From contig JBAIZL010000001.1 in assembly GCA_036971475.1 (NCBI GenBank), positions 206,557,841 to 206,621,840 on the forward strand: 64,000 nucleotides of DNA. The letters run 5' to 3'. The notes under the pieces are model-generated. The model was not told the DNA's origin and did not search any database. It saw nothing but the letters and a program-made list of their open reading frames with translations. A program made the position numbers and the translations under genes. Below, one piece after another: positions 25,241 through 45,531 of this stretch (its first letter is position 1; each line of letters opens with the position of its first letter). The stretch comes from Prosapia bicincta. Taxonomy: Eukaryota; Arthropoda; Insecta; Hemiptera; Cercopidae.

Positions 25241-25295
25241 TTAATTTTAGTTAAACGTCTGCTCATGGTAAACACGAATATAACCTATATACATC

Positions 25296-25301
25296 AATGT
25301 T
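25296..25301. other. Left target site duplication AATGTT
   Basis: Identical to 45526-45531. The unoccupied homologous site at 8371-8376 has one copy in the opposite orientation. Confidence 0.9.
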
Positions 25302-25339
25302 AGTAGATGTCAAAACCACAGTTTCGCCACAAAAACAGG

Positions 25340-25545
25340 TGGTTTTGATGAAAAATACGTTACTTTTCCGTTACAAACGGTTACGTGAGGTATGAGGGGT
25401 TGGTTTCAGCGATTATTGGAGGGTAACGTGAATGGGAGGAGATATAAAATGTGCGCGGTTGTGCGCGGTTGTGCGTAGGTGTAGGTGGCAGGTGTTTTTT
25501 TTAGAAATACGTTAATTTTCCGTTAAAGACCGTTAGGTGAGGTAG
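25340..25545. repeat. Subterminal direct repeats
   Basis: A motif starting AAATACGTTA, followed by TTTTCCGTTA and then GTGAGGTA, occurs at about 25352-25393 and again at about 25505-25545. A duplicated GTGCGCGGTT lies between. The same arrangement is present at the right end in inverse order. Such repeats near an end often bind the element's own recombinase; that role is inferred. Confidence 0.7.
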
Positions 25546-25663
25546 TATGGGTTGGTTGGTGATATGCGTGTTGGCTGTTGTGTGATGTAATTAGAAGCAT
25601 GTTCGGACATGTTGGTTACCTAGAGAATGAGGTAATTTTGGCATGTGTTTTTTGTGGAGGACC

Positions 25664-26452
25664 GTGTGTATTATATTCTGTACCCAGTTCGTTGCTGGCC
25701 TATATTTTTACTATAACATCGCGTGTGTACGGTTGAAATCCGTTACGAGGTGATGGGATTATTTTCGCTATAAATGTGTCAGTCGCAAAGACTGAACGGT
25801 GACTTCTCTGTTTGTTCTTCAGATCTTTACTGGTTAAAAAATGTAAAAGCATGTTAATTTATTGATATAGGTTCCTCGCTCGTGAGCTAATGTGTTTACA
25901 CATCGTTGTGCTAGCGATTGTTTGTTGTAACAGGTATTTGGCCTGAATAAATTGTTTTTGAAAACCTACCTCTAGAGAATGACGTCATTTTGACATGTGT
26001 TTTTGTAAAGGAACGTGTGTATTATATCTCGTACCCAGTTCGTTGCTGAGTGTGACGTAATTAGAAGCATGTTCGGACATGTTGGGGGGTAATGTAAAAA
26101 CCGTTGTTTACCTAGAGAATGTGTGTATTATATTCTGTACCCAGTTCGTTGCTGACCTATATTTTTACTATAACATCGCGTGTGTGTACGGTTGAAGTAT
26201 TTTTTTTAAAACCGTTGAAATCCGTTACGAGGTGATGGGATTATTTTCGCTATAAATGTGTCAGTCGCAAAGACTGAACGGTGACTTCTCTGTTTGTTCT
26301 CCAGATCTTTACTGGTTAAAAAATGTAAAAGCATGTTAATTTATTGATATAGGTTCCTCGCTCGTGAGCTAATGTGTTTACATATCGTTGTGCTAGCGAT
26401 TGTTTGTTGTAACAGGTATTTGGCCTGAATAAATTGTTTTTAAAAACCTACC
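25664..26452 (+). promoter_or_regulatory. Tandemly duplicated promoter-like block upstream of the RING frame
   Basis: A block of about 320 bases occurs at 25664-25978 and again at 26121-26452, with a partial third piece at 25980-26090. Each full block has a TATAAA (25769-25774 and 26251-26256), followed by a CAGTC...GACTG hairpin, a CTTCAG or CTCCAG site, and a TTGTTGTAACAG acceptor-like site shortly before the RING frame. Copies also exist in the right repeat at about 44375-45165. Promoter function is inferred. Confidence 0.5.
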
Positions 26453-26651
26453 TAAGGCTTTAGTTACTAGGAAGACCTCATTGGCAGCAGATATACTTCG
26501 TGCAGAATGTAAAATCTGTCTATCAGAAGTTCAAGTGGTTTATTTACCCTGCAGACACGTTATTGCTTGTTTGCTTTGCGGATTAGCCTGCAAAACTTGC
26601 GGAATTTGCAGAGAAACTGTTGACTCTTTTATGAGAATTTATCTTTCCTAA
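26433..26651 (+). CDS. IAP-type RING-finger protein (possible 3' exon), left copy
   Basis: The open frame of 72 codons has no ATG upstream of the RING. It contains a full C3HC4 finger with spacing C-x2-C-x10-C-x-H-x3-C-x2-C-x6-C-x2-C (Cys26, Cys29, Cys40, His42, Cys46, Cys49, Cys56, Cys59) and ends about 13 residues later in Arg-Ile-Tyr-Leu-Ser. This spacing and end position are those of the C-terminal RING of inhibitor-of-apoptosis proteins, which act as ubiquitin ligases. No BIR domain is visible nearby. The missing start suggests a 3' exon (TTGTAACAG acceptor-like site at about 26406-26415) or a truncated gene. An identical frame lies on the minus strand in the right repeat (44176-44394). 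Confidence 0.65.
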   Translation: MVFKNLPKALVTRKTSLAADILRAECKICLSEVQVVYLPCRHVIACLLCGLACKTCGICRETVDSFMRIYLS

Positions 26652-27027
26652 CATTTGTAATAATTTTTTGTTTAACAACAATATTTCTTTTTAAAGTTCA
26701 AGTGGTTTATTTACCCTGCAGACACGTTATTGCTTGTTTGCTTTGCGGATTAGCCTGCAAAACTTGCGGAATTTGCAGAGAAACTGTTGACTCTTTTATG
26801 AGAATTTATCTTTCCTAACATTTGTAATAATTTTTTGTTTAACAACAATATTTCTTTTTAAAGTTCAAGTGGTTTATTTACCCTGCAGACACGTTATTGC
26901 TTGTTTGCTTTGCGGATTAGCCTGCAAAACTTGCGGAATTTGCAGAGAAACTGTTGACTCTTTTATGAGAATTTATCTTTCCTAACATTTGTAATAATTT
27001 TTTGTTTAACAACAATATTTCTTTTTA
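26527..27027 (+). repeat. 167-bp tandem triplication of the RING 3' half
   Basis: Units beginning AAGTTCAAGTGG start at 26527, 26694 and 26861. Each encodes the RING from the second metal pair to the stop codon plus about 45 bases of 3' flank. Only the first unit is joined to the upstream Cys pair. The right repeat carries the same array at about 43800-44300. Confidence 0.92.
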
Positions 27028-27186
27028 ATAGTATAATTATTGTAACTTATTATTTAAAAAATATATAAATATTATGTCTTGTAGAAAAAATGTAATTTTG
27101 TGTTTGCTTTGGCCAAGCTTAAGTCATTTTACACCTTTGCTCAACTAAAAAATCCTCTATTTTATTAATATTCAAACATCAAACAA

Positions 27187-27236
27187 TACACACACACACA
27201 CACACACACACAGACACACACACACACACACACACA
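27187..27236. repeat. (CA)n microsatellite in left TIR
   Basis: CA run with one interruption. The right-repeat copy (43586-43639) is longer, which explains most of the offset between the two repeats. Confidence 0.95.
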
Positions 27237-27339
27237 AGTGTTGGGGGATACCGGCTTGACAGCCAGATGTTGAGGCCAGCTGCGAGTTGGGAAACAGTAT
27301 ATAACATGTGGCGACTTGTTATCCTATAGCAATAAAATC

Positions 27340-27611
27340 ATGAGCGTCGGTAAGGCAACAATTGTACAACAGCTTGAAATTTCCGACTTCGTGTCGTTGC
27401 TGCGCATTGGGGTAGCATACGACATGTGGAAGGAAGACTATAAAAAAGTGGAAATTTCTCTTTGGTGTTGAGGTCTAAACGAAAACTCACCGCTAGGGAA
27501 AGAGCCATTGTAGAGAATTGCAAGAGCCTTCCTTGTCAGGAGGTTATAGACCTCCTTCGCTCTCCCAAAAAGCCGGTACTATTGTTGACTTTCTACCGAC
27601 AACCAAAGTGA
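27340..27611 (+). pseudogene. Small TIR gene (family S), left copy, frameshifted
   Basis: It has the same sequence as the intact right-hand copy (43209-43481) except that one C is missing between 27463 and 27464, which shifts the frame after about 41 codons. Start ATG, stop and the downstream hairpins are otherwise preserved. Because the two repeats are otherwise nearly identical, the loss is recent, or is a sequencing artefact. Confidence 0.7.
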
Positions 27612-27634
27612 GCGTGATGGGTCTGCATAGACCC

Positions 27635-27780
27635 TAGAGAAAACAGCCCTATAGTGTAAAACACAGTCTTATACTATAGGGCTGTTTTCTCTACATTAAA
27701 ATTTCATTTTAGCTATAGTGAATACTTGTGCGACAAGTATTACACTATAATTTTAAAGTCACGCGTGACTTTATAATTAT
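27635..27780. terminator. Three consecutive perfect hairpins after the small gene
   Basis: Hairpin 1 has 21-bp perfect arms (27635-27655 and 27673-27693) with a 17-base loop and begins 24 bases after the stop codon. Hairpin 2 spans 27714-27749 (outer TATAGTG/CACTATA, inner AATACTTGT/ACAAGTATT). Hairpin 3 is centred on ACGCGT at 27761-27766 with arms spanning about 27747-27780. All are repeated in the right TIR (43040-43185). A similar hairpin follows the paralogous gene (29798-29864). Roles in 3' end formation, replication or protein binding are possible; none is shown. Confidence 0.7.
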
Positions 27781-28162
27781 ATTGTAATATTTGTTGACCG
27801 TCACCTACGCTGACCGAGTGTTCTAATAGTGAACATACGTCAGAGCACCAGAGTAACGAGTGAACGGATTCTACTAGGTCTTACACGTTTATATAGAGCA
27901 AATAGCATTCTTTGTTTAGCGCGCAATATTTACATCTGTCGATTCTAAAATGAGCTCTGTTTTTCATGGTTGTTATATGCTACGTTCTCCCACAGTGTCG
28001 GGATTAGGTTAGAAACATATTTAAACAAATTAACATATGAACAGGGTAAATAGTTGACGATAACTATCAAATTATGTATGTAATTTCATATTTTTTAAAA
28101 ATATATTTTTTTAATAAAATTATAAATAAACAAAACCTCTTGAGCAACATTTTTTTTATATC

Positions 28163-28273
28163 CTTATGTGCATTTCGATTGTTAAGCAATAATCTTTAAA
28201 GGAAATTACTAAATGCTTAATATTTGTAGTAATTTCCTCTGAAAACGATTGATTTGCAATCTAAACGTACATC
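28163..28273. repeat. Palindromic repeat P, first TIR copy
   Basis: Arms of about 45 bases face each other around an AT-rich centre. The innermost part is GGAAATTACTA and its inverse, and the outer part resembles GTACGTTTAGATTGCAAATC. It is part of a larger block (28012-28290) that is repeated directly at 29040-29340. Confidence 0.75.
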
Positions 28274-28369
28274 AGGAGATTATCGGAGTTCTAGACATTA
28301 ATGCAAGACAAGGTGGATGCTATCTTCTTAGGTAAAGGGATATAACTACTTCCACCATACTCTTAATTT

Positions 28370-28732
28370 TTACCTAATCTCCATCCAGACCCCGTGTTCG
28401 GTTATTTTCAAAACAATCTCCTGCATACATTCCCTGGCTACGTTTTCCAGGTCTGATGCAAAAGTAATTTTTCTGTTCCTAGTTATAAACGCTCTCTGAG
28501 ATATTTCTCCTTCCACATTTACAAATTCGGACTCCATCACAAGTCCAAACTTTATAAAATTTAAACGAATGAGCTCCTCTTACAACAGCTCCACTACAAC
28601 ATCGCTCGCTTCAATTATGTAATCGTCCAAATAGAGTTCGCTCACGTTCAATAGTTGAGTAAATAAGGTATTGTGGGAGGTGGAAGGAATTGAAGTGTTC
28701 CAAATCACAAATTGAAGTAACTCTGCGGGGGA
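28370..28732 (-). pseudogene. Polymerase B N-terminal remnant, left TIR copy
   Basis: This is the mirror copy of 42088-42450, where it is described. It has the same in-frame stop. Confidence 0.55.
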
Positions 28733-28804
28733 ATTGAACTTATAATAAGTAACTCTGCGGGTTACTTGAACTTATAATAATTATTTTTTTTTTCGGGGAG
28801 GAGG

Positions 28805-29048
28805 TACAGAATGTATTAAACTTTAATCCAAGCTTTGGAAAATGTGTGAAGCATTTCCTTCCAGCTAAGAACTGGGTCAAGCTCGTTTAAATATTTAAAA
28901 TTTTTTTCCCTTAAAACTATGGGAAAGAATAGGAAGGAGTGACTCTAAGCAGAATGTACTGAATATCCTCCTTGTAACACTCTGCACAAAGGGATCCCTA
29001 GGCGCTCTACTAGACTGGAACGCAATTCGTCACGTCACCAGAAATTAG
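28805..29048 (+). pseudogene. Unidentified coding remnant U, left TIR copy
   Basis: From 28920 the plus strand is open for 42 codons, beginning Trp-Glu-Arg-Ile-Gly-Arg-Ser-Asp and including Cys-Thr-Lys-Gly-Ser-Leu-Gly and Leu-Asp-Trp-Asn-Ala-Ile. A protein-like stretch upstream (28849-28887, Lys-His-Phe-Leu-Pro-Ala-Lys-Asn-Trp-Val) is in another frame and ends in a stop. A third, internal copy at 38739-39120 continues further downstream, so this copy is truncated where it joins the repeated block at 29040. The family is unknown. Confidence 0.5.
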
Positions 29049-29340
29049 GTTAGAAACATATTTAAACAAATTAATATATGAACAGGGTAAAGAGTTGACC
29101 ATAACTATCAAATTATGTATGTAATTTCATATTTTAAAAAATATTTTTTAATAAATTTAGAAATAAACAAAACCTCTTGAGCAACAATTTTTTTTTTTAT
29201 ATCCTTATGTGCATTTTGATTGTTAATCAATCATCTTTTAAAGGAAAATTACTAAATGCTTAATATTTTGTAGTAATTTCCTCTAAAACGATTGATTTGC
29301 AATCTAAAACGTACATCAGGACATTATACTGAAAATTGTG
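29040..29340. repeat. Second direct copy of the 28012-28290 block
   Basis: It begins TTAGGTTAGAAACATATTT, as does the first block, and includes palindromic repeat P at about 29205-29335. Together with the following RING and small-gene remnants it shows that the TIR contains a duplicated multigene module. Confidence 0.85.
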
Positions 29341-29393
29341 GTCGGTTAAGAAATGGAGAGCAATTTCTCTTTCAAGCAGCTGTTTGAATCATA

Positions 29394-29516
29394 TGTTATG
29401 TAAAATCTATAGATCAGAAGAAGTTGGTGTTCTATTTGCCCCTGCAGACACGATCTTGGTTGTATTTGTAAAGAGACTGTGGGCTCTCTGTTAAGAGAAT
29501 TTATCTTTCTTAACAT
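29394..29516 (+). pseudogene. Decayed second RING-finger copy
   Basis: The sequence aligns with the RING frame at 26500-26651. The Cys-Lys-Ile start, the Pro-Cys-Arg-His centre and the final Glu-Thr-Val segment can be followed, but one base insertion shifts the frame and about 30 bases of the middle are missing, removing several zinc ligands. The 3' flank (29515-29650) matches that of the intact copy. It is mirrored at 41304-41426. Confidence 0.7.
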
Positions 29517-29797
29517 TTGTGATAATTTTTGTGTGTAACAACATTATTATTCTTTTTAATAATATAATTATTGTAACTTATAATTTCTAAAAAAAGAAAA
29601 AAAATATATATATATTATGTCTTGTAGAAAAAAAATGTAGTTTTGCGTTTGCTTTGACTAAACCTAATATTGGTTTTTTTTATTGCTCTATAACTCCTGT
29701 ACAGCTCTTTGATAATTGGAAATGTAATTTTTTTGAAGTTATCTTTTACTTGCTTTGACCCATTTGTCATATAACTTTCAAGCTCAAATTTTGTATG

Positions 29798-29864
29798 TAG
29801 AGAAAATAGCCCTATATTGTATAGAAACTGTTTCCAGTTTATACAGTATCTGGCTTTTTTCTCT
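29798..29864. terminator. Hairpin following the paralogous small gene
   Basis: Arms beginning AGAGAAAATAGCC and ending GGCTTTTTTCTCT resemble the perfect hairpin at 27635-27693 in sequence and in position, about 20 bases after the gene's stop codon (the gene is on the minus strand here). It is mirrored at 40956-41022. Confidence 0.65.
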
Positions 29865-29884
29865 GGGGAGGGGGTTTTCCTCCC

Positions 29885-30160
29885 TCACTTTGGCTTCATG
29901 TAAATGTGTACAATTAACACCGGACTTTTGTATGAATCTAATATATTTTCGGCTAAAGCATCACAAGGAAGCTTACTACAATTTTCTATCACTTCCATAT
30001 CCTCTTGTGTCAGTGGGTGTTCGGATGAGTTCACCGAAATTGAAAACTCAACAGTGTCATACTTTTAACGTCTTAGCTCGATGCCTTGTATAACAAAGGG
30101 TATTTGATCGACGTGGGATATCACCAGCTTATAAATGATTGTAGCTTTACCCAGTTTCAT
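29885..30160 (-). pseudogene. Small TIR gene, second paralogue (family S), left copy
   Basis: A 92-codon frame on the minus strand begins Met-Lys-Leu-Gly-Lys-Ala-Thr-Ile and ends Tyr-Met-Lys-Pro-Lys. It aligns without gaps, apart from a slightly different serine-rich middle, to the small gene at 43209-43481, sharing Gly-Lys-Ala-Thr-Ile, Val-Ile-Glu-Asn-Cys versus Ile-Val-Glu-Asn-Cys, Leu-Pro-Cys, and a Ser-Pro-x-Leu run. An in-frame TAA lies about one third of the way in, in both TIRs, so it predates the copying or homogenisation of the repeats. Its orientation is opposite to that of the first paralogue relative to the RING copy. Confidence 0.65.
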
Positions 30161-30337
30161 GATTCAAATGCTAATGTATACGTAAACGCTGATCGTTAAA
30201 TACTTTTAATTTGGTAGTGGTTAATATAACCTGTTTTAATTGAATTTTAAAAACTTTCAAGGTTAAAATTTCTTAGAGAAATATCTTACAGTATACTCAT
30301 TCTGTTTTCATTCTTTATATATTATATATGGGGGGGG

Positions 30338-30590
30338 GGCACGGTTCATGAACGGTTCAATTGAAGCGCTTCATTTGAAAGACTCAGTGAACCGCGGTTT
30401 TTTTTAAAAGAATTGCCTTTCACCGGTTCTCTTCTGAAGCGCTTCAGTAAGATTCAGTTAATCACGGTTCTATGAGAAAGAATTGTCTTTCATCTGTTCT
30501 TTCGGTTCTGAAGCGCTTCAGTAAGAACCAAAGAAAGGAGTGAACCTATGGTTCAGTCAGTCAGTGAGCCAGTCTTCTCTTGTGGTTCGT
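30338..30590. repeat. Cluster of GGTTC/GAACC and GAAGCGCTTC palindromes
   Basis: Three GAAGCGCTTC palindromes occur within about 150 bases (near 30365, 30435 and 30510), each with flanking GGTTCA, GAACGGTTC or TGAACC motifs, after a run of G (30331-30339). It is mirrored at 40230-40489. It could be the subterminal region of a small inserted element or a protein-binding array. Confidence 0.55.
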
Positions 30591-30599
30591 CATGCTAAT

Positions 30600-31556
30600 A
30601 TGTAACATACAAACCGAATTCGTACTGTTTCAATTCGGCAAATATTTTACTGTAGTTTATTATTTCGACAAATGAGAAATTATTTCCAGCCTCATTTGAT
30701 TGAAAATTCAATCAACTCTTTAAAGTGTTACTATTTGGAAGTAACTTTAACAAAAACTAAGAAAAAATAATTTTTTTCTAAAAGAAAATCTCACGTTAGA
30801 AAAATTTTGATATAATTTGTAAATTTTTAATTTAGACAACAATTTTTGGTATAGTAATATGTTAAATTGTTTAGTAACTTGATAAGCAATGTGGTTCTTC
30901 TAAATCATACCAGGGTTAGATAAAAATTTATAATTATATTTTTAATAACACAAATCATCAAAGTTGTATTGTTTCAACACAAAAAATAGATTTTGCTATT
31001 GTTACTAAGATCCTCTACAAATTGAGATTAAGAAATTTGCACATATAGATTAATTATTTAATATAAAATGATAATTAATATTATGACTATCGTAACACCG
31101 ACATTATTTTATATAATGTTCCACCGAGCGATCGAAAACGTTCTGTCTCAGTAAGTTTTAACAAATTTACAAAACTCAAAGTTCGCATAGTCATAAACTA
31201 TTGTTTAAGTGATTAATAAGATTCGCCGAACGTAATGGAGTACAAAATTCAATAATTATTTTTATTATTAACTTATAAATTAAAATTTGTGTGTGTGTGC
31301 GTGATCACATACATAATCATTAATTACAAGAATATAAATTAATATCACGCAAGTTATAAATTAATATTACCGGAATAAACACATATTTACTATAGTACTA
31401 TGTTGCTAAATAATACAATAAGTGTAGTTATGTTTATAAAGCCACACCTAGTCAATATTTACGTTTGATTCATCCGTTTTTTGTTTATAATGTATTCTTC
31501 AATAACATTTTTTGAAAATGTTAGTTGAGAGCCATTTGGCCAAGTATTACTCACAA
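30600..31556. other. Inner TIR, no gene seen
   Basis: Very AT-rich. No coding or RNA signature is seen. Similarity with the right TIR ends at about 31556/39266. Confidence 0.6.
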
Positions 31557-31809
31557 TTTAACAAAATGGTCAGTTTGTACTGTTTTATCTATATTGCTAC
31601 AATGTGGTTATCATTAAAATAACCTTACAGGCTGAGTTCGAACAATAGTACGTTCGTAAATTGGTTGGAATAATAGCAGTTTAATAGGGTGTACAACACA
31701 TTACATCTGTCGTACATATAGTACCACCATCTGCTATAAATTCATTACACCTAGTTTTACACAAGCTTGGAAAACATACAACACCTTTCAATATCACCTG
31801 CTAGTCGGT

Positions 31810-31823
31810 GTATATATATATAA
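31810..31823 (+). promoter_or_regulatory. TATA-rich promoter candidate for the 146-aa frame
   Basis: A TATATATATATAA run ends 63 bases before the ATG at 31887, the spacing expected for a TATA box with a short 5' leader. Confidence 0.5.
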
Positions 31824-31886
31824 CAAAACGTTCCATCTCTTTACTTGTATTTCAACTCTTGAAACCGAGAAGTACTCCACGGCATT

Positions 31887-32327
31887 ATGTCTATCTTAAG
31901 AACTTTATTAAAGAAGCAAGTTAAAGATAATATAAAATTGCGGGAAATATTTGATTACTTTAAAATACCTGATGTCGTAACCCCTATAGATGAAGTAAAA
32001 GATTATGATATTCAAAAAATTTGTGAAAAATTCAAAATGCCAAAACTGCTGTCACCAATAAGAAATATATCTCGGCCAACGGAATTAATGAAAAATGACT
32101 GTAAAACTATTAAAATAAAGATAAATAAATTAAAAACTAATTCAAAATATTTTTATAACAAAACATTGATTAAAAAAAAAATTGTATTTTTAGAATTAAA
32201 TAATGAAGATGGAAAAAAATTTATATTAAAAATGCCTACTAAAACAAACTTGCCAAAAAGAATTACAAAAAGACACTATTTAACGAAAATATTTAAAAAC
32301 CAACAACCGTTTTGGGATGTGATATAA
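31887..32327 (+). CDS. Lysine-rich 146-aa protein of unknown family, unique core
   Basis: This is the longest non-repetitive frame in the window and the only sizeable one in the unique core. The product is strongly basic: about a quarter of residues are Lys or Arg, concentrated in residues 70-140, which suggests nucleic acid or membrane-surface binding. Near the N-terminus a motif I-x3-F-K-x-P-x4-P-I occurs twice with a period of 24 residues (residues 21-34 and 45-58). I see no signal peptide or membrane segment. A TATA-rich run precedes the ATG, and AATAAA signals overlap and follow the stop codon, followed by a poly(A) run at about 32370-32398. No intron is evident. It could be a virus-type accessory or DNA-binding protein; the family is not recognised. 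Confidence 0.6.
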   Translation: MSILRTLLKKQVKDNIKLREIFDYFKIPDVVTPIDEVKDYDIQKICEKFKMPKLLSPIRNISRPTELMKNDCKTIKIKINKLKTNSKYFYNKTLIKKKIVFLELNNEDGKKFILKMPTKTNLPKRITKRHYLTKIFKNQQPFWDVI

Positions 32328-32367
32328 ATAAAAAAAATAAATAAAAACCTTCTCCTTTCCTAACAAA

Positions 32368-32405
32368 AAAATAAAAAAAAAAAAAAAAAAAAAAAAAAAC
32401 AAAAA
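32368..32405. repeat. Poly(A) tract after the 146-aa frame
   Basis: A nearly pure A run about 40-70 bases after the stop. It could be a genomic homopolymer or the remains of a retrocopy tail. Confidence 0.8.
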
Positions 32406-32995
32406 ATAACTTTAAAAAAACATAATAAAAAAAATTGTAATACATTGTCATATTTGCCATGAATCTTTGGCTTAATTTTTGTTTGACTGTATTTTTTTAT
32501 AAATCTAATACAAACAATTTTTACTTATTTTAAAATGTTAAATAATCTAAGTCCTATTGTTATTTAGTTTTAAAACTTGTCATATTTACATTATTCATTA
32601 TTGGTGTCTGAAATGTAAAAATAAGACTGTTGTTGTATATATCGGGGGGGGGGGTCTCAATATGTCAAGGGAGTATTAGATACAAAGTGATTTTTCCAAA
32701 AGCATGTAAGTATAAAGCGAATTTCTTTTTTCAGTTGGTTTCCACACCACATTAAGTTTAAATATATATGTATTGACCTGTTATACACAATAATACATAT
32801 ATATAAATCTACTAAGCTGTACAACTGAATGGCGCGTTAAGAGTTTTTTTATGGAACTCTTTCCCCATTAGGCCTATAAACCACAATGAACAGTAACATT
32901 GAATTAAAAATTTGATGCCCCCCCCCTAATAAATAAGACAAAATTTTAAACAACATGTGAATAAATATATAAGTTATATTTTACAATGTACTTAC

Positions 32996-33047
32996 CAAAT
33001 TTGATTATTAGCTCATGGCTACTCATGCTTTCCTCGTAATATTCCAT
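32996..33047 (-). other. Possible short first coding exon
   Basis: An ATG at 33047 is followed by 17 codons and then a GTAAGTAC donor consensus (from 32995). No matching acceptor and downstream exon was identified, so this is only a candidate. Confidence 0.25.
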
Positions 33048-33077
33048 ATGAACCTAATCTATTATGGATAGTGTTTG

Positions 33078-33430
33078 TTACTGGGTGACTCTATACATTC
33101 CTTCCAGGGTAACACAAACAATTATTTCAATTGTATATGCCCACATAAGACTCCTCAATAGATTGGATGGTAGGTACGTAACGCTTCTGACCATTTCATG
33201 CATCACTGAGCTATAACTAATGTGATCATTTTCCACGAGTTCAACTTTCACTAAAACACTAGAATACATAAGCCGGAAGGATTCTACGCTGTTAGAAATC
33301 GTTCTTAATTCCGAAACATTACGCACTATTCTTTCAAAGTAAATGTAAGCATAAGTATTAGGTTCCATTGCGAGACAATTGTGTAGTAATACAAGCACAT
33401 CATTTTCTCGTGTATATATATAGAAAGATA
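33078..33430 (-). CDS. Exon-like 118-codon open frame, unknown
   Basis: The minus-strand frame begins immediately after a strong acceptor-like site (TTTTGTTTTTTACAG ending at 33431) and stays open to a TAA at 33078. Composition is less AT-rich than the surroundings, with Cys, Met, Glu and Arg in balanced use and no homopolymers. The C-terminal third is hydrophobic (Leu-Met-Trp-Ala-Tyr-Thr-Ile...Ile-Val-Cys-Val). No family is recognised. The product could be the last exon of a spliced gene of the element; an upstream exon was not located. Confidence 0.4.
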
Positions 33431-34166
33431 CTGTAAAAAACAAAAGATACTTAGCATATAAACTTTACTTGTTCACCTGTGTACCGGTATGCAGACATAT
33501 TACCGTTTTAAGCTTACTTGATCACCCCGCAGATATATTTTCCAGACATGTTTCAATAGGGGCAGTCAATGCCCGCTTTCCAACCTGGTTCATATCCATA
33601 TTTTTTCTGCAGCTATTCTTAGTAAATATTTAGCGGTATACGTAATTTTTAAGTGCGTGAGCGTTTGTGTGAATGAATACGCAAGCGCATTCTTTAAAAT
33701 ATATATGTATTTAATATTAGTTTTGTATTTTAAAGTGTGTAATATTTTGTTCACTGTGACATGCTCGACTGCACACAGCTATTCATTGCAAATGTACCTA
33801 TTTTAACAATTTATATATACCATTTTTCCGTAACTAATTCATCATAAAATAATTTTTTCAACATTTATATGTTATATAAAACGTTGTGTGTGTGTGTGTA
33901 TATATGTTACATATAAAATTATCAATCGTTAATAAAATACTTTTTATTCATCCACTCTAGTCTAAATACATTGATTTAAACTTGTACTAGATGACACTTC
34001 ACGGTAATAGTTTTTTTGGAACTTACGTATTATACTGAGACCAGTAATATATACAGTATATAGGTAGGTACGTAGTAATGTATAAAATTACAACCACATC
34101 TATCCTGAATAGATAATTCATAGGTATATTCATTTTTAGATGTAATACAATGGGATGTTGCTACTG

Positions 34167-34168
34167 CG

Positions 34169-34222
<54 letters not shown>
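34167..34222. repeat. (CG)n/(CA)n microsatellite
   Basis: A short CG run passes into a CA run of about 45 bases. Confidence 0.96.
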
Positions 34223-34225
<3 letters not shown>

Positions 34226-37200
34226 CTACATGTCTAAAACGAGTTAACATAATAAAAACTTTTCTCTCTTTAACTTATCCATAGTGAGTTGTTCTGAGAT
34301 GCAGTAAACATATTCCATACAACGTTCCGCTCAGTTAATTTATACACTCTTGACATTTCCTAACAAAACCACTAGAGCACAGTAGACCCGCAGTTTTGAG
34401 TTGAACAAACTTGACCTTGCCTAATATGGTATAGCAGCTTTTGAACCATGACAAGTTTCTGTATCGGGTTTAGCCAGCATATGTCCATGCAATGCGTTCA
34501 GCAAGCGGTGTATGTTACTTTTTTTGTGACGTGTTAGTTTTTCGTGTTAGTTTAGTGTGTTTTTAAATGTTAAAATTTTGAATCTAAATGTATTTATTTA
34601 CAGCGTTTCACTTCTGTTAACATTATTATAATGTTTATTACTTGTTGGTAAGTAAACAGAATAATTTTTTAATTTTTTTAAATTTACAAATATTTACCTA
34701 TATTAATTGTAATATAGCCTATATATAAAAACTCTTTTTCCTCTGAAAAATAAAAAACATAATTTTTCACCTGTATTAAATATGATTTTTGTGTTCAAAT
34801 ATATGAAATCTTTTAAAAATAATAATGTAATAGTTTTTTTTACATAATTTTGTAGGAAATTTCTGCATATAATAATTTAGGTAAGATTTTTTCTGATATC
34901 GTTAAGACAAGTAAGCGTGCACAATATCTATATAAAACTAAATACAAAATCGTATAAAACAATTGCGTGTAGATATGGCATTTTAAACACAAAAAATCTA
35001 TTGTAAAATAGTATTGCTGTCTCTGCGTGATATTATAGCTTTGGAAAGGCTACAATACCACATCTTTTTATTGTATATAGGTTTTTAACATATGGAATTA
35101 TTGCACACAATATTTCGTATTTACTAATAATTATAGAATACTGCATTCAACGTATTGGCTTAAACATGCCTTTACTAATTCTAAAAAACGTTTTAATCAG
35201 CAGGATATTAAATCCTAATAATTATTTATTAATAGGAGAATAAATCCTGAAATTTCGTTTTTTTTGTGAAGGAAGGAACCGTTTTCCATTGTTACCGCTA
35301 AACTTTATTCTTCCTTTTGCATTCATAAATGTCGGAACTAACACAAAGGATGTCAATTATATAACAGATATTAGACTGTTTCTAACCTGTTTCTTTCCAT
35401 AAGCTGAAAATTATATTTTTATACTAGTTCAAATAATTATTTATTTATATATATTTATATATTTATTTTATTATATAAAAAAATATATAATACATATAAT
35501 ACATATATTATTTATTTATATATATTTATTTTATTATATAAAAAAATATATAATATTAATTGCTATATTTTTAATAAATAACATTTTTATTTAATTTTAA
35601 ATCGTTAACAATTTGTGCTAAAAATTAACAAATTACTTTCGGAAAACTACATTAAAAATATATATACTTAATATTTATTCATTTATTCTGAAATGCAATA
35701 TATGTTCAACTTTAAGTATACTTTCCTGTTCTCAAGTACGGCTCAATTAAAAAACATTAATGAGTTGCACAGTTATAAATCATTTGAAACCCTTTCAATA
35801 TTAGAGGAATAGATCCTTAAAATTCTACGCTAATTTCATTCTACTATTAAAAGTAAAAACTAAAATTTCTCCATTAAAAGACGTATACGAATGTTAAATT
35901 TGCAAAGTATCGAAGTGCTTCAATAATTTGTAAACTAAATATATGTCCAATAATGTTTAGCTCGTTATAACTTTACCGCTGCACAGTAAATGTTATGCTT
36001 TTTCATAAAAGAACTATAAATTGAATAAGCTATGCAAATTTAGTTAACTAGTTTTTTTATTTTAATATTTAAATATAAACGAACCGAAATAAAAAATATT
36101 ATAAAAATTAGAACCTTTATTTAAAAATCAGTTACTTTGTACACTGTAAAAGTCTGCCGCAGAAACTTAACAACCAGTTCTATAAAGACAAAACCTGTCT
36201 CGTTCTTTGCCCTATGTCAACAACCAGCAGGTGTGACAAACAGGTGACTTTGAAAACTGCACGTTTCTCCGCTTATGTGGGGCGCGTTTATGTAGAAGTG
36301 CGAGCTTGTAACATGACCTCCTCTTGACTACAGGATTAAATGAAAAAACCCTCAATATATACAAAGTAAGATTTTTGTTATAATAAATTATATAATTGCA
36401 TATCATTTATTATTTAATTATTGTTACAGCAATAAAAGAGTAGCCGTATTGAGCGCATGACTGTAAAATCAAGTGTCTTAACTAGCGTTTATTTTTAATT
36501 GTTTATTTTTAACACTGATTTCATTATTATAATTCTTTTAGTAGAAAAAGTTACTATATCTATTCACAAGTAAATTAAGGTATGCCTGTTTTTGTGTATT
36601 AACTTATAAATTATATTATATAACATCTGAAACTAGACAAATGTAACCCACATACGTTTAATTCTGACTTTTTGGAACGTTATAAAAAATATTCTCTAAA
36701 TTTGTTGAAATCAGATGTTGTACTCGTAATTTTCTGCATCGATAATAATTCTAAAAATAATTACCAATATTTTAATCAAATCTATCCTGACTGAATACTT
36801 TGTGCTGTTTTAATTACAGAACCACACGGCACATGTATTTCATGAGTAAATAAATATAATTGCTACTCGTTTGGAAAATAATATATATTTAATATAGCTT
36901 TTTATATTCTTAAGGACGTTTTTTTATTTATCTAACAAACAAAAATATTCACAGTTGATAAAAACTAGTTCTTTTGACTTAATCTAAGCGCAAGATGTCA
37001 TTTTTTCCCTACAAGTTACTACGAGTTATACTCTTAACGTTTTTATATAATTTATTTAATTATTCAACTTCTTTTTAAGGAAAAGCTTATTAAATTTTTA
37101 TTAATAAGGGAAATTAGTTTATGTAATTCAACAATAGGACACCTATTTCTGATAATATTAGCAACAAAACATTACTAGACCCTGAATATTAACTTTGTGT

Positions 37201-38400
37201 AAATTACACTAGGTTTAAAATTGAACCTGGTCGTTACGTTATTATAAGCCATACAAATATAAACATAGTACTCTATGTACAAATAATATTGTTTAGTATA
37301 AGATCTCCTTTCATTATGAGTTACCAGGAATTAAAAAAAGTAATATAGAAAAAAATGAGTTTTTTAAATTAAATTCCTAATAAAACCGATGAAGAAAAAT
37401 TTTGTTATATATTTATTGTTAAAATTATCATAACAGTTAATATATAAATAAATATGTATATAAAAAAAATAATATTTTCTCCCTCTGTACAGTATATGGT
37501 GTTTTTTTGTATATTATTTTTGTTTGTTACTATTTAATTAGTTTCTTTTTTCGTTTCTAATTTATGAAACTGATAGTGCTCTATAACGTATCATTTTATT
37601 ATTTATCTCTTGTAATGCTTTATTATTGCAATGAACGTTTTTTCTTATAATTTTATATACCTATTAAAGTAATCGCTTTCCTACAATTCCGCTAGCTCGT
37701 GTGTATGTGCTCGTGTGTGCGCGTACGCGCGCGCATGTTTGTGTGTGTTTGTTTTGAAATACAATGCAATTACGTTAGGATTAATAAAACTCAGACTGAC
37801 AGGTGTTAAGACAGGTGTTGTGGGGGGGACGGGTAAAACTAGGTTTGATGAACTCAGAGGGGGCAGGTGTTGCACTGCATGTAGGTATTAGCTGTATATA
37901 AACGCGCAAAACGTTTAGGGACTGTTCACTTCTATGCATGACTTTATAGAGTGAATACTATGTTCTTGTTAGCTTTTAAGATATTTCAATGTTTTAATAT
38001 ATTTTTTATTCCCTTGTATTTTATATAGGTTACTTTGGTTTTATGCTTTGTAAAGAAGGTATGCACCCAGAGATAACGGTTTTTTGCGGTTCAAAATAAG
38101 TAACCATGCTTGAAACCCAAAAAATCTGCGAAAATATCGCCAGTTGTATATTGTTCGCATATCTTGGTCATATCTTATTTCCAAAGCATATAATTTGAGA
38201 TAACATCTCTGTATTGTGAGTTTTTGTTAGCTTGTTAAGAAATACAATTATAATATATGTTTATTCCTTGTTGTACTTTATATAGCTCACTTTGGTTTAC
38301 ATTATATTGTATTATTTAATTTTTTTGTGCATGTTAGACTAAATGTTTAGATGTATTTTGTGGTTGCATGTTAAATTTTATTTTTATAATTATAGCATAA
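34223..38400. other. AT-rich core, no recognisable gene
   Basis: Almost all A+T. Frames found here are short and composed mainly of Ile, Lys, Asn, Tyr and Phe. A GC-richer patch at 37690-37870 includes GT/CG repeats. I looked for polymerase, integrase, packaging ATPase, protease and capsid motifs expected in a Polinton and saw none. Confidence 0.5.
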
Positions 38401-38625
38401 ACACAGCATGTTTTTCAGGTTAAAATAATTATATATGTATTTCTTCCAGGTTTATATAAATAATACCAATATTTATTCTTGTTTCAGCACGTTTTTCAGG
38501 TTAAAATAATTATATCTTTATTTATTTCAGGTTTTATATAAATAATACCAAATTTATTTAATAACATTTTTTTATTGTTTATTTTCAGGTAAAATAATAT
38601 ATGTTTCTTACTTCCAGGTTTACAT
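38400..38625. repeat. Degenerate tandem repeat
   Basis: Three copies of a segment with TTTTCAGGTTAAAATAAT followed by a CAGGTTTATATAAATAATACC-like part occur at a spacing of about 70-80 bases. Confidence 0.65.
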
Positions 38626-38738
38626 CATTAATATCCCTAATACTCCTTCCTCTTTCACGCATGCTAAGGCTATCTCCGGATAGTTTGTCTAGGGGCAACC
38701 CTGGCAAAGCGTGTTGTCCTGGACATCATAGTTTCTGT

Positions 38739-39120
38739 TCACTGGGAGCTTGATATCCAACCCTCACCCCCGCCCACCTTTTTGTCTTTTCCCCGAGGTG
38801 AGTAAACGTAGCGGATGATTGGCGAGATGAATTTCGCGTCATTCGTTGCATCACCCGGCTTCCAATAGTCATATAGCAAGAACGAATTCAGCGTATGTCT
38901 ATTATTCACTTACACCCCAATCCCTCTAGGTTGCCGTTGGTCTATTCGGCTGGTGACGTGACGAATTGCGTTCCAGTCTAGTAGAGCGCCTAGGGATCCC
39001 TTTGTGCAGAGTGTTACAAGGAGGATATTCAGTACATTCTGCTTAGAGTCACTCCTTCCTATTCTTTCCCATAGTTTTAAGGAAAATTTTTTTTTAATAT
39101 TTAAACGACCTTGACCCAGT
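38739..39120 (-). pseudogene. Unidentified coding remnant U, internal copy (longest)
   Basis: On the minus strand the frame runs from about 39120, through the same Trp-Glu-Arg-Ile-Gly-Arg-Ser-Asp and Leu-Asp-Trp-Asn-Ala-Ile motifs as the TIR copies, to a TAA at 38910-38912. It then continues in the same frame for 56 more codons (Asp-Tyr-Trp-Lys-Pro-Gly-Asp; Pro-Ile-Ile-Arg-Tyr-Val-Tyr) to a TGA at 38739-38741. The TAA coincides with a GTAAGTG donor-like site at 38907-38913. This copy alone holds the downstream half. About 125 bases are identical to the TIR copies, so copying was recent. The family is unknown; it may be a former structural or replication gene of the element. Confidence 0.5.
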
Positions 39121-40659
39121 TTCTAGCTGGAAGAAAATGCTTCACACATTTTCCAAAGCTTGGATTAAAGTTAGAATACACACAAATTTAAATTTATAAG
39201 TTATTATAAAATAATTATTGAATTTTGTAGTCCATTACACTGACCATTTTGATAAAATAAGATTTTGTGAGTAATACTTGGTCAAATGGCTCTCAACTAA
39301 CATTTTCAAAAAATGTTATTGAAGAATACATTATAAACAAAAAACGGATGAATCAAACGTAAATATTGACTAGGTGTGGCTTTATAAACATAACCACACT
39401 TATTGTATTATTTAGCAACATAGTACTATAGTAAATATGTGTTTATTCCGGTAATATTAATTTATAACTTGCGTGATATTAATTTATATTCTTGTAATTA
39501 ATGATTATGTATGTGATCACGCACACACACACAAATTTTAATTTATAAGTTAATAATAAAAATAATTATTGAATTTTGTACTCCATTACGTTCGGCGAAT
39601 CTTATTAATCACTTAAACAATAGTTTATGACTATGCGAACTTTGAGTTTTGTAAATTTGTTAAAACTTACTGAGACAGAACGTTTTCGATCGCTCGGTGG
39701 AACATTATATAAAATAATGTCGGTGTTACGATAGTCATAATATTAATTATCATTTTATATTAAATAATTAATCTATATGTGCAAATTTCTTAATCTCAAT
39801 TTGTAGAGGATCTTAGTAACAATAGCAAAATCTATTTTTTGTGTTGAAACAATACAACTTTGATGATTTGTGTTATTAAAAATATAATTATAAATTTTTA
39901 TCTAACCCTGGTATGATTTAGAAGAACCACATTGCTTATCAAGTTACTAAACAATTTAACATATTACTATACCAAAAATTGTTGTCTAAATTAAAAATTT
40001 ACAAATTATATCAAAATTTTTCTAACGTGAGATTTTCTTTTAGAAAAAAATTATTTTTTCTTAGTTTTTGTTAAAGTTACTTCCAAATAGTAACACTTTA
40101 AAGAGTTGATTGAATTTTCAATCAAATGAGGCTGGAAATAATTTCTCATTTGTCGAAATAATAAACTACAGTAAAATATTTGCCGAATTGAAACAGTACG
40201 AATTCGGTTTGTATGTTACATATTAGCATGACGAACCACAAGAGAAGACTGGCTCACTGACTGACTGAACCATAGGTTCACTCCTTTCTTTGGTTCTTGC
40301 TGAAGCGCTTCAGAACCGAAAGAACAGATGAAAGACAATTCTTTCTCATAGAACCGTGATTAACTGAATCTTACTGAAGCGCTTCAGAAGAGAACCGGTG
40401 AAAGGCAATTCTTTTAAAAAAAACCGCGGTTCACTGAGTCTTTCAAATGAAGCGCTTCAATTGAACCGTTCATGAACCGTGCCCCCCCCCATATATAATA
40501 TATAAAGAATGAAAACAGAATGAGTATACTGTAAGATATTTCTCTAAGAAATTTTAACCTTGAAAGTTTTTAAAATTCAATTAAAACAGGTTATATTAAC
40601 CACTACCAAATTAAAAGTATTTAACGATCAGCGTTTACGTATACATTAGCATTTGAATC

Positions 40660-40935
40660 ATGAAACTGGGTAAAGCTACAATCATTTATAAGCTGGTGAT
40701 ATCCCACGTCGATCAAATACCCTTTGTTATACAAGGCATCGAGCTAAGACGTTAAAAGTATGACACTGTTGAGTTTTCAATTTCGGTGAACTCATCCGAA
40801 CACCCACTGACACAAGAGGATATGGAAGTGATAGAAAATTGTAGTAAGCTTCCTTGTGATGCTTTAGCCGAAAATATATTAGATTCATACAAAAGTCCGG
40901 TGTTAATTGTACACATTTACATGAAGCCAAAGTGA
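40660..40935 (+). pseudogene. Small TIR gene, second paralogue (family S), right copy
   Basis: Same sequence as 29885-30160, including the in-frame stop. It is followed by the related hairpin at 40956-41022. Confidence 0.65.
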
Positions 40936-41303
40936 GGGAGGAAAACCCCCTCCCCAGAGAAAAAAGCCAGATACTGTATAAACTGGAAACAGTTTCTATA
41001 CAATATAGGGCTATTTTCTCTACATACAAAATTTGAGCTTGAAAGTTATATGACAAATGGGTCAAAGCAAGTAAAAGATAACTTCAAAAAAATTACATTT
41101 CCAATTATCAAAGAGCTGTACAGGAGTTATAGAGCAATAAAAAAAACCAATATTAGGTTTAGTCAAAGCAAACGCAAAACTACATTTTTTTTCTACAAGA
41201 CATAATATATATATATTTTTTTTCTTTTTTTAGAAATTATAAGTTACAATAATTATATTATTAAAAAGAATAATAATGTTGTTACACACAAAAATTATCA
41301 CAA

Positions 41304-41426
41304 ATGTTAAGAAAGATAAATTCTCTTAACAGAGAGCCCACAGTCTCTTTACAAATACAACCAAGATCGTGTCTGCAGGGGCAAATAGAACACCAACTTC
41401 TTCTGATCTATAGATTTTACATAACA
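41304..41426 (-). pseudogene. Decayed second RING-finger copy, right TIR
   Basis: Mirror copy of 29394-29516 with the same frameshift and internal deletion. Confidence 0.7.
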
Positions 41427-41771
41427 TATGATTCAAACAGCTGCTTGAAAGAGAAATTGCTCTCCATTTCTTAACCGACCACAATTTTCAGTATAATGTC
41501 CTGATGTACGTTTTAGATTGCAAATCAATCGTTTTAGAGGAAATTACTACAAAATATTAAGCATTTAGTAATTTTCCTTTAAAAGATGATTGATTAACAA
41601 TCAAAATGCACATAAGGATATAAAAAAAAAAATTGTTGCTCAAGAGGTTTTGTTTATTTCTAAATTTATTAAAAAATATTTTTTAAAATATGAAATTACA
41701 TACATAATTTGATAGTTATGGTCAACTCTTTACCCTGTTCATATGTTAATTTGTTTAAATATGTTTCTAAC

Positions 41772-42015
41772 CTAATTTCTGGTGACGTGACGAATTGCGT
41801 TCCAGTCTAGTAGAGCGCCTAGGGATCCCTTTGTGCAGAGTGTTACAAGGAGGATATTCAGTACATTCTGCTTAGAGTCACTCCTTCCTATTCTTTCCCA
41901 TAGTTTTAAGGGAAAAAAATTTTAAATATTTAAACGAGCTTGACCCAGTTCTTAGCTGGAAGGAAATGCTTCACACATTTTCCAAAGCTTGGATTAAAGT
42001 TTAATACATTCTGTA
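41772..42015 (-). pseudogene. Unidentified coding remnant U, right TIR copy
   Basis: Mirror copy of 28805-29048. Confidence 0.5.
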
Positions 42016-42087
42016 CCTCCTCCCCGAAAAAAAAAATAATTATTATAAGTTCAAGTAACCCGCAGAGTTACTTATTATAAGTTCAAT

Positions 42088-42450
42088 TCCCCCGCAGAGT
42101 TACTTCAATTTGTGATTTGGAACACTTCAATTCCTTCCACCTCCCACAATACCTTATTTACTCAACTATTGAACGTGAGCGAACTCTATTTGGACGATTA
42201 CATAATTGAAGCGAGCGATGTTGTAGTGGAGCTGTTGTAAGAGGAGCTCATTCGTTTAAATTTTATAAAGTTTGGACTTGTGATGGAGTCCGAATTTGTA
42301 AATGTGGAAGGAGAAATATCTCAGAGAGCGTTTATAACTAGGAACAGAAAAATTACTTTTGCATCAGACCTGGAAAACGTAGCCAGGGAATGTATGCAGG
42401 AGATTGTTTTGAAAATAACCGAACACGGGGTCTGGATGGAGATTAGGTAA
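42088..42450 (+). pseudogene. Polymerase B N-terminal region remnant (Polinton/adintovirus type), right TIR copy
   Basis: The plus-strand frame is open from 42088 to a stop at 42448-42450, except for one TAA at 42238-42240. After that stop come Glu-Glu-Leu-Ile-Arg-Leu-Asn and Ile-Lys-Phe-Gly-Leu-Val, then Ala-Phe-Ile-Thr-Arg-Asn-Arg, an Asp-Leu-Glu turn, a Glu-containing helix and a Gly-Val-Trp near the end. This order matches the conserved region preceding the DNA polymerase B of animal Polintons and adintoviruses, where I expect an (Arg-)Ala-Phe-x-Thr-x-Asn motif and a Gly-Ser-Gly-Trp end. No exonuclease or polymerase motifs follow; the sequence meets a GTAAAAAT donor-like site and then non-coding DNA. 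It cannot encode a functional polymerase. Confidence 0.6.
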
Positions 42451-42546
42451 AAATTAAGAGTATGGTGGAAGTAGTTATATCCCTTTACCTAAGAAGATAG
42501 CATCCACCTTGTCTTGCATTAATGTCTAGAACTCCGATAATCTCCT

Positions 42547-42657
42547 GATGTACGTTTAGATTGCAAATCAATCGTTTTCAGAGGAAATTACTACAAATAT
42601 TAAGCATTTAGTAATTTCCTTTAAAGATTATTGCTTAACAATCGAAATGCACATAAG
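42547..42657. repeat. Palindromic repeat P, right TIR copy
   Basis: Mirror of 28163-28273. Confidence 0.75.
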
Positions 42658-43039
42658 GATATAAAAAAAATGTTGCTCAAGAGGTTTTGTTTATTTATAA
42701 TTTTATTAAAAAAATATATTTTTAAAAAATATGAAATTACATACATAATTTGATAGTTATCGTCAACTATTTACCCTGTTCATATGTTAATTTGTTTAAA
42801 TATGTTTCTAACCTAATCCCGACACTGTGGGAGAACGTAGCATATAACAACCATGAAAAACAGAGCTCATTTTAGAATCGACAGATGTAAATATTGCGCG
42901 CTAAACAAAGAATGCTATTTGCTCTATATAAACGTGTAAGACCTAGTAGAATCCGTTCACTCGTTACTCTGGTGCTCTGACGTATGTTCACTATTAGAAC
43001 ACTCGGTCAGCGTAGGTGACGGTCAACAAATATTACAAT

Positions 43040-43185
43040 ATAATTATAAAGTCACGCGTGACTTTAAAATTATAGTGTAATACTTGTCGCACAAGTATTC
43101 ACTATAGCTAAAATGAAATTTTAATGTAGAGAAAACAGCCCTATAGTATAAGACTGTGTTTTACACTATAGGGCTGTTTTCTCTA
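43040..43185. terminator. Three hairpins after the intact small gene
   Basis: Mirror of 27635-27780. The 21-bp arms of the first hairpin are 43127-43147 and 43165-43185, starting 24 bases beyond the stop codon of the minus-strand gene. Confidence 0.7.
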
Positions 43186-43208
43186 GGGTCTATGCAGACC
43201 CATCACGC

Positions 43209-43481
43209 TCACTTTGGTTGTCGGTAGAAAGTCAACAATAGTACCGGCTTTTTGGGAGAGCGAAGGAGGTCTATAACCTCCTGACAAGGAAGGCTCTTGC
43301 AATTCTCTACAATGGCTCTTTCCCTAGCGGTGAGTTTTCGTTTAGACCTCAACACCGAAAGAGAAATTTCCACTTTTTTATAGTCTTCCTTCCACATGTC
43401 GTATGCTACCCCAATGCGCAGCAACGACACGAAGTCGGAAATTTCAAGCTGTTGTACAATTGTTGCCTTACCGACGCTCAT
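43209..43481 (-). CDS. Small TIR gene (family S), intact right copy, about 90 aa
   Basis: The 90-residue product starts Met-Ser-Val-Gly-Lys-Ala-Thr-Ile and ends Phe-Tyr-Arg-Gln-Pro-Lys. I prefer this Met because the paralogue at 40660 begins at the equivalent point; an in-frame Met lies eight codons upstream. The middle is basic (Arg-Ser-Lys-Arg-Lys-Leu-Thr) and a predicted helix with Glu-Asn-Cys precedes a conserved Leu-Pro-Cys. The C-terminus is a short hydrophobic strand ending in Pro-Lys. No signal peptide or membrane helix is present. The family is not recognised. Conservation of the start, the two cysteines, the end and the following hairpin between two diverged paralogues argues that it was a real gene. 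The upstream neighbour in the same direction is the RING frame at 44176-44394. Confidence 0.65.
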   Translation of the reverse strand: MSVGKATIVQQLEISDFVSLLRIGVAYDMWKEDYKKVEISLSVLRSKRKLTARERAIVENCKSLPCQEVIDLLRSPKKPVLLLTFYRQPK

Positions 43482-43583
43482 GATTTTATTGCTATAGGAT
43501 AACAAGTCGCCACATGTTATATACTGTTTCCCAACTCGCAGCTGGCCTCAACATCTGGCTGTCAAGCCGGTATCCCCCAACAC

Positions 43584-43585
<2 letters not shown>

Positions 43586-43639
<54 letters not shown>
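43586..43639. repeat. (GT)n microsatellite in right TIR
   Basis: Longer and purer than the left copy at 27187-27236. Confidence 0.96.
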
Positions 43640-43641
<2 letters not shown>

Positions 43642-43799
43642 TGTTTGATGTTTGAATATTAATAAAATAGAGGATTTTTTAGTTGAGCAAAGGTGTAAAA
43701 TGACTTAAGCTTGGCCAAAGCAAACACAAAATTACATTTTTTCTACAAGACATAATATTTATATATTTTTTAAATAATAAGTTACAATAATTATACTAT

Positions 43800-44300
43800 T
43801 AAAAAGAAATATTGTTGTTAAACAAAAAATTATTACAAATGTTAGGAAAGATAAATTCTCATAAAAGAGTCAACAGTTTCTCTGCAAATTCCGCAAGTTT
43901 TGCAGGCTAATCCGCAAAGCAAACAAGCAATAACGTGTCTGCTGGGTAAATAAACCACTTGAACTTTAAAAAGAAATATTGTTGTTAAACAAAAAATTAT
44001 TACAAATGTTAGGAAAGATAAATTCTCATAAAAGAGTCAACAGTTTCTCTGCAAATTCCGCAAGTTTTGCAGGCTAATCCGCAAAGCAAACAAGCAATAA
44101 CGTGTCTGCAGGGTAAATAAACCACTTGAACTTTAAAAAGAAATATTGTTGTTAAACAAAAAATTATTACAAATGTTAGGAAAGATAAATTCTCATAAAA
44201 GAGTCAACAGTTTCTCTGCAAATTCCGCAAGTTTTGCAGGCTAATCCGCAAAGCAAACAAGCAATAACGTGTCTGCAGGGTAAATAAACCACTTGAACTT
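43800..44300 (-). repeat. 167-bp tandem triplication of the RING 3' half, right TIR
   Basis: Mirror of 26527-27027. The unit at about 43941 carries a T for A change (CTGCTGGG for CTGCAGGG). Confidence 0.92.
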
Positions 44301-44394
44301 CTGATAGACAGATTTTACATTCTGCACGAAGTATATCTGCTGCCAATGAGGTCTTCCTAGTAACTAAAGCCTTAGGTAGGTTTTTAAAAACAAT
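44176..44394 (-). CDS. IAP-type RING-finger protein, right copy
   Basis: Mirror of 26433-26651 with the same eight zinc ligands and the same lack of an ATG. It lies upstream of, and in the same direction as, the intact small gene at 43209-43481. In the right TIR both frames are therefore open, and they could share the duplicated promoter block at 44375-45165. Confidence 0.65.
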   Translation of the reverse strand: MVFKNLPKALVTRKTSLAADILRAECKICLSEVQVVYLPCRHVIACLLCGLACKTCGICRETVDSFMRIYLS

Positions 44395-45525
44395 TTATTC
44401 AGGCCAAATACCTGTTACAACAAACAATCGCTAGCACAACGATATGTAAACACATTAGCTCACGAGCGAGGAACCTATATCAATAAATTAACATGCTTTT
44501 ACATTTTTTAACCAGTAAAGATCTGGAGAACAAACAGAGAAGTCACCGTTCAGTCTTTGCGACTGACACATTTATAGCGAAAATAATCCCATCACCTCGT
44601 AACGGATTTCAACGGTTTTAAAAAAAATACTTCAACCGTACACACACGCGATGTTATAGTAAAAATATAGGTCAGCAACGAACTGGGTACAGAATATAAT
44701 ACACACATTCTCTAGGTAAACAACGGTTTTTACATTACCCCCCAACATGTCCGAACATGCTTCTAATTACGTCACACTCAGCAACGAACTGGGTACGAGA
44801 TATAATACACACTTTCCTTTACAAAAACACATGTCAAAATGACGTCATTCTCTAGAGGTAGGTTTTCAAAAACAATTTATTCAGGCCAAATACCTGTTAC
44901 AACAAACAATCGCTAGCACAACGATGTGTAAACACATTAGCTCACGAGCGAGGAACCTATATCAATAAATTAACATGCTTTTACATTTTTTAACCAGTAA
45001 AGATCTGGAGAACAAACAGAGAAGTCACCGTTCAGTCTTTGCGACTGACACATTTATAGCGAAAATAATCCCATCACCTCGTAACGGATTTCAACCGTAC
45101 ACACGCGATGTTATAGTAAAAATATAGGCCAGCAACGAACTGGGTACAGAATATAATACACACGGTCCTCCACAAAAAACACATGCCAAAATTACCTCAT
45201 TCTCTAGGTAACCAACATGTCCGAACATGCTTCTAATTACATCACACAACAGCCAACACGCATATCACCAACCAACCCATACTACCTCACCTAACGGTCT
45301 TTAACGGAAAATTAACGTATTTCTAAAAAAAACACCTGCCACCTACACCTACGCACAACCGCGCACAACCGCGCACATTTTATATCTCCTCCCATTCACG
45401 TTACCCTCCAATAATCGCTGAAACCAACCCCTCATACCTCACGTAACCGTTTGTAACGGAAAAGTAACGTATTTTTCATCAAAACCACCTGTTTTTGTGG
45501 CGAAACTGTGGTTTTGACATCTACT

Positions 45526-45531
45526 AATGTT
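45526..45531. other. Right target site duplication AATGTT
   Basis: Identical to 25296-25301. Confidence 0.9.

Follow-up and report, generated by a model that had tools for sequence, protein, structure and literature searches.

The window analysed here, a stretch of 64,000 nucleotides from Prosapia bicincta (contig JBAIZL010000001.1, positions 206,557,841 to 206,621,840), carries a Polinton-like (Maverick-like) element of 20,224 bp at 25302-45525. Its two 6.25-kb arms occupy 62% of this length and align in inverted orientation (25302-31556 with 39265-45525) as a single block of 6264 columns at 99.75% identity, with 8 mismatches and 3 gaps; as judged by eye, the similarity picks up again past a short indel, to about 31573/39242. 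The tips read AGTAGATGTC...GACATCTACT, and AATGTT flanks the element on each side. The whole window is an old inverted duplication (blocks of 83-86%), with the element in one arm of it and an empty site in the other: 8371-8574 matches 25301-25098 in inverted orientation at 86%. When the two flanks are joined with a single AATGTT, they align across 8371-8376 with no gap at that point, so that the edges of the element and its duplication are fixed by sequence. A preliminary description, made from the letters alone, had claimed these termini and flanking repeats, an arm share of over 60% and the empty paralogous site, and the alignments bear out all of them. From the window copy alone AATGTT is also readable as a 2- or 4-bp duplication; its length is settled as 6 bp by the other copies. 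The outer features are:

8371-8376, minus strand: paralogous empty site with a single AATGTT, from the flank alignment
25296-25301: left target-site duplication, AATGTT
25302-31556, plus strand: left terminal inverted repeat, 99.75% over 6264 columns
31557-39264: centre, common to the five further copies read
39265-45525, minus strand: right terminal inverted repeat, from the arm-arm alignment
45526-45531: right target-site duplication, AATGTT

The host genome (2.2 Gb, 361 contigs) contains many relatives of this element. The first 2 kb of the arm has at least 67 genomic matches (40 of the 847 candidates were scored), many of them inverted pairs about 20 kb apart. The tip pattern, with up to three mismatches, occurs at 439 places and its backwards-read control at 49, so that part of the 439 tips is due to chance. 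Five further copies, read in both halves almost throughout, all consist of arms of about 6 kb and the same centre of about 7.6 kb, in either orientation; the arm length of C340 is derived from the match of each half to the window arm and from the inner-arm tree. This recurrence makes the long repeats a family trait, neither an odd single copy nor an assembly error. An exact 6-bp duplication flanks 13 of the 14 same-tip copies with both tips readable (C79b was not among these 14), and the 13 duplications represent 12 independent sites, C8c and C8d being one segmental duplicate. Different ends or a missing 6-bp duplication, which the preliminary description regarded as contrary evidence, are not seen in these 13 copies; the duplication is absent from C199. 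The copies C340:46.93 Mb and C313:89.80 Mb sit at an identical position within a repeat, their duplications being AGCGTT and, as its reverse complement, AACGCT, and some copies have flanks that are repeats of one another.

The coding capacity of the element is low. Six-frame Pfam scans of the centre and the right arm, with stops replaced by X, revealed none of the core Polinton domains (PolB, integrase, capsid, A32-like ATPase), the sole family found being an IAP-type RING; of the PolB frame, only a fragment of the N-terminal part is present. No open frame exceeds 154 codons in the ten halves of the five further long-repeat copies. The inner features are:

25309-25349, plus strand: terminal hairpin CAAAACCAC..GTGGTTTTG, folded with RNA energy parameters; second copy at the right tip
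26433-26648, plus strand: IAP-type RING, a frame of 72 aa that does not open with a start codon (PF13920, 9.9e-9); inverted copy at 44179-44394
26527-27028, plus strand: three 167-bp tandem units containing most of the RING; inverted copy at 43799-44300
27635-27693, plus strand: K1 hairpin with 21-bp perfect arms, starting about 24 nt past the K1 stop; right copy at 43127-43185
28370-28630, minus strand: K3, a stop-bearing piece of a Polinton PolB frame, from its N-terminal region; right-arm copy at 42190-42450 (plus)
31887-32327, plus strand: 146-aa frame (ORF146), open in six of six copies
33078-33368, minus strand: 96-aa frame, open in six of six copies
37739-39169, minus strand: centre segment matching the right-end interior of a gene-bearing Polinton at 95-96%
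40660-40935, plus strand: K2, a paralogue of K1 with an in-frame stop; left copy at 29885-30160 (minus)
43209-43481, minus strand: K1, intact 90-aa frame (model with a predicted local distance difference test score, pLDDT, of 89); left-arm copy at 27340-27611, one base short

The preliminary description placed whole genes in the repeats, which holds for one intact 90-aa frame, K1 of the right arm, but not for the startless RING frame or for the rest, which are fragments or stop-bearing frames. Of 12 arms, 11 have an intact K1, and K2 and K3 have an identical stop in all 12. K1 and K2 are related (phmmer E 7e-11; 24 of 57 residues identical), and their identity by codon position (32, 39 and 20 of 57), together with a ratio of nonsynonymous to synonymous substitution rates (dN/dS) of 0.36 (NG86) or 0.29 (LWL85), indicates a gene that was formerly coding or, as far as K1 is concerned, may be coding still. 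Related strong hairpins sit about 20 nt past the stops of both (27635-27693 and 29798-29864) and suggest a putative RNA 3'-end signal; a scan of the window with a composition filter kept no hairpins with perfect arms of at least 15 bp other than the K1 hairpin and its inverted copy. The closest solved chain of the RING frame is the BIRC3 RING (E 4.5e-9). For the 146-aa and 96-aa centre frames no relatives were found. The tip hairpin has an energy of -16.3 kcal/mol (equally low in 2 of 500 shuffles), and its stem is retained in five other folded family tips, including that of the gene-bearing copy, one of them with a mismatch; two other Polinton families of the genome showed no tip hairpin of this form.

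Around the element, the inverted duplication behind the empty site extends over 3961-12000 as against 17600-25301 and 45526-48833 (83-86%). A piggyBac-type transposase fragment (PF13843, E 2.1e-10; 24226-24501, minus strand) lies immediately left of the insertion, and 50976-52853 is a degenerate long tandem array with several frames open up to about 200 codons.

The same genome harbours a gene-bearing Polinton with the same tips (C8:27569277-27589878), 20,602 bp long, with terminal repeats of 981 bp at 99.7% and flanked by the 6-bp duplication CCTAAC, read by eye at the tips. It encodes an rve integrase (PF00665, 8e-9, with a chromo match below the cut-off), PolB (PF03175, 8e-13) with an endonuclease VII domain, an A32-like ATPase (E 7e-4, below the cut-off), a double-jelly-roll capsid (PF21738, 7e-66), a RING (8e-11) and a BIR (4e-16). 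The BIR frame (C8:27575909-27576295, minus strand) is separate from the RING, at a distance of about 12 kb, and the two form an IAP-like pair on a Polinton. The window element matches this copy in the tip (90% over 578 bp), in the 3' end of the RING (98%), in the right-end interior, which corresponds to part of the window centre (95-96%), and in part of the N-terminal region of the PolB frame, to which K3 of both arms is 87% identical. Compared with the RING frame of the gene-bearing copy, that of the window element is missing the N-terminal part and the start.

Gene-bearing Polintons are numerous in this host: PF03175 has at least 197 matches (76 of the 1591 candidates were scored), many of them in stop-free frames of 1273, 1308 or 1407 aa, although this set omits the gene-bearing same-tip copy and so cannot prove that any copy lacks PolB. 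Two other families, with PolB frames of 1308 and 1273 aa and represented by one copy each, share the AGTAGA ends and the 6-bp duplications with the window element but differ from it in their repeats, which are 620 bp at 99.8% in one case and about 1.4 kb, made up of pieces of 89-95%, in the other; no tip homology of the window element to these families was found past the first bases. The Polinton with 620-bp repeats has frames for an rve integrase (chromo below the cut-off), A32-like ATPase, double-jelly-roll capsid, a phospholipase-like protein and dUTPase. The family with the 1407-aa PolB (C146:195.9 Mb) shows no detectable inverted ends within 20 kb.

The shared tip, RING end, right-end interior and PolB fragment indicate that the window element was derived from the gene-bearing lineage by rearrangement. 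The 6-bp duplications and the AG...CT termini with inverted repeats place it among mobile Polintons, and its tips and sequence in common with one gene-bearing Polinton are those of a non-autonomous derivative. We are therefore highly confident that it is a non-autonomous, rearranged Polinton (Maverick) derivative related to the gene-bearing Polinton of the same genome; the earlier view of a new, rearranged and probably non-autonomous lineage gains support from the duplications, the shared pieces, the lack of core domains and the recurrence in five of five further copies.

We suppose that the ends, once about 1 kb long, grew to about 6.2 kb by inverted duplication and that the core genes were lost, leaving only the cis parts, that is, the AGTAGA tips and the tip hairpin. 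The element is probably replicated and inserted in trans by its gene-bearing relatives: PolB of these Polintons would start protein-primed replication of the element at both tips, and their integrase would integrate the copies, creating the 6-bp duplication. Were the ends to pair during strand displacement, new copies would have two nearly identical arms.

Each copy largely has its own arm version on both sides. Across the outer 1150 bp, the left arm of 10 of the 13 copies finds its closest match, alone or in a tie, in the right arm of that same copy, with a mean distance of 0.30% to the own partner and 2.8% to shuffled partners, and none of 20,000 label shuffles was as close; the shuffle kept C8c and left out its segmental duplicate C8d as well as C79b, whose right tip lies outside the piece. 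C8c, of 21.7 kb, may itself be a gene-bearing copy. In the tree of the inner arm (4.5 kb), left and right are sisters in all six copies, the median difference between copies being 0.38%, and the differences between the arms of one copy range from 0 to 12 per about 4.5 kb, with zero in two of the six. If the ends pair during protein-primed replication, as in adenovirus, arms of this kind are expected, and we read the pattern as equalisation at every cycle, with such pairing as the likely step. We know of no genomic test of this prediction of protein-primed replication.

Several observations weigh against this picture. The gene-bearing same-tip sample consists of one copy, about 14.9 of whose 20.6 kb were read, and its PolB domain is split across two frames, so that this copy may itself be inactive; the tip identity of only 90% over 578 bp means that the direct parent may belong to another subfamily. 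For C8a, the inner-arm distance to its own partner (0.27%) is barely below that to the nearest other copy (0.29%), and 3 of 13 tips (C199, C313c and C8b) are unpaired with their own arm. C199 has no duplication and mixed tips, which resemble those of C313c and C8b, and this combination suggests recombination between copies. This copy, at 135.34 Mb, has tips from two subgroups, yet its inner arms are without substitution over 4540 aligned bases. Finally, the arms might be equalised by gene conversion after insertion instead of at every cycle, a possible though rather unlikely course: inverted repeats of 6 kb at 99.7% are able to convert, and two of six copies show no difference over 4.5 kb. The arm data agree with conversion as well as with replication, and the arm differences vary by copy, as different ages predict.

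The other explanations concern the nature of the element itself. A provirus reading, in which an unknown virus brought long inverted ends and K1, K2 and ORF146 as genes of its own, could account for the diverged coding paralogues K1 and K2, but we hold it to be very improbable given the same stop of K2 and of K3 in every arm read, the failure of the scans of the centre and right arm to detect a capsid or polymerase domain, and the sequence in common with a Polinton. Galileo and Foldback elements belong to the P superfamily and have 7- to 8-bp duplications, while the duplication here is 6 bp in 13 of 14 copies. The long, internally repetitive inverted repeats do resemble those of Galileo, as described in the abstract of PMC3573991; with AG..CT tips and sequence shared with a Polinton that bears PolB and integrase, an origin from that other DNA-transposon superfamily by expansion of such repeats is scarcely credible. 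A false palindrome made by the assembly, conceivable since long inverted repeats are difficult to assemble, can practically be dismissed in view of the recurrence of this architecture at separate loci whose duplications differ, the copy-specific arm differences and the paralogous empty site.

Elements of the piggyBac type target TTAA, and no TTAA duplication occurs among the 14 copies. Teratorn (PMC6431247), another of the nearest known systems, differs in being a piggyBac/herpesvirus element of 41-182 kb. With the vertebrate Mavericks the family shares 6-bp duplications, AGT-type tips, a similar size and, in its gene-bearing same-tip copy, PolB, integrase, ATPase-like and double-jelly-roll capsid frames; intact vertebrate Mavericks measure 12.7-24.6 kb with repeats of 46-1447 bp (PMC8097293), unlike the window element with its repeats of about 6.2 kb and without core genes. 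A literature search that did not extend to Repbase or most subscription journals found no paper on a non-autonomous Polinton or Maverick.

The six long-repeat copies read are 19.9-20.2 kb long, and the gene-bearing same-tip copy 20.6 kb. The 100 exact tips listed, out of the 439, form 45 inverted pairs and leave 10 unpaired; 38 of the 45 pairs span 19.1-21.1 kb and the shortest 17.3 kb, the class of a pair (long-repeat or gene-bearing) being known for the fetched copies alone. For intact vertebrate Mavericks, a size variation of about 10% is argued to reflect a genome size constraint like that of adenoviruses (PMC8097293). The near gene-bearing length of the long-repeat copies and the lack of short listed pairs fit packaging; the long-repeat copies may come from one founder, and hence count as one event for the length argument, so that the more independent hint comes from the absence of short pairs in the set of 45. 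Speculatively, and with considerable doubt, the element could be a satellite of a virus-like Polinton, without capsid genes of its own, copied and packaged in helper particles; its giant repeats would persist by holding the length near the 20-21 kb of the helper and would be recopied to identity in each round.

Polintons are usually studied through their genes, whereas here a coding-poor lineage seems to have spread with nothing but its cis sequences, and its repeats are several-fold the length of those of intact vertebrate Mavericks (46-1447 bp, PMC8097293). The paired arms are a natural record of how both ends become alike. Non-autonomous copies at gene-bearing length bear on whether animal Polintons form particles, for which PMC8097293 already argues from size constancy among intact elements. 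If the satellite explanation were true, the arms would carry a birth-date clock, and the family would be genomic evidence for Polinton particles.

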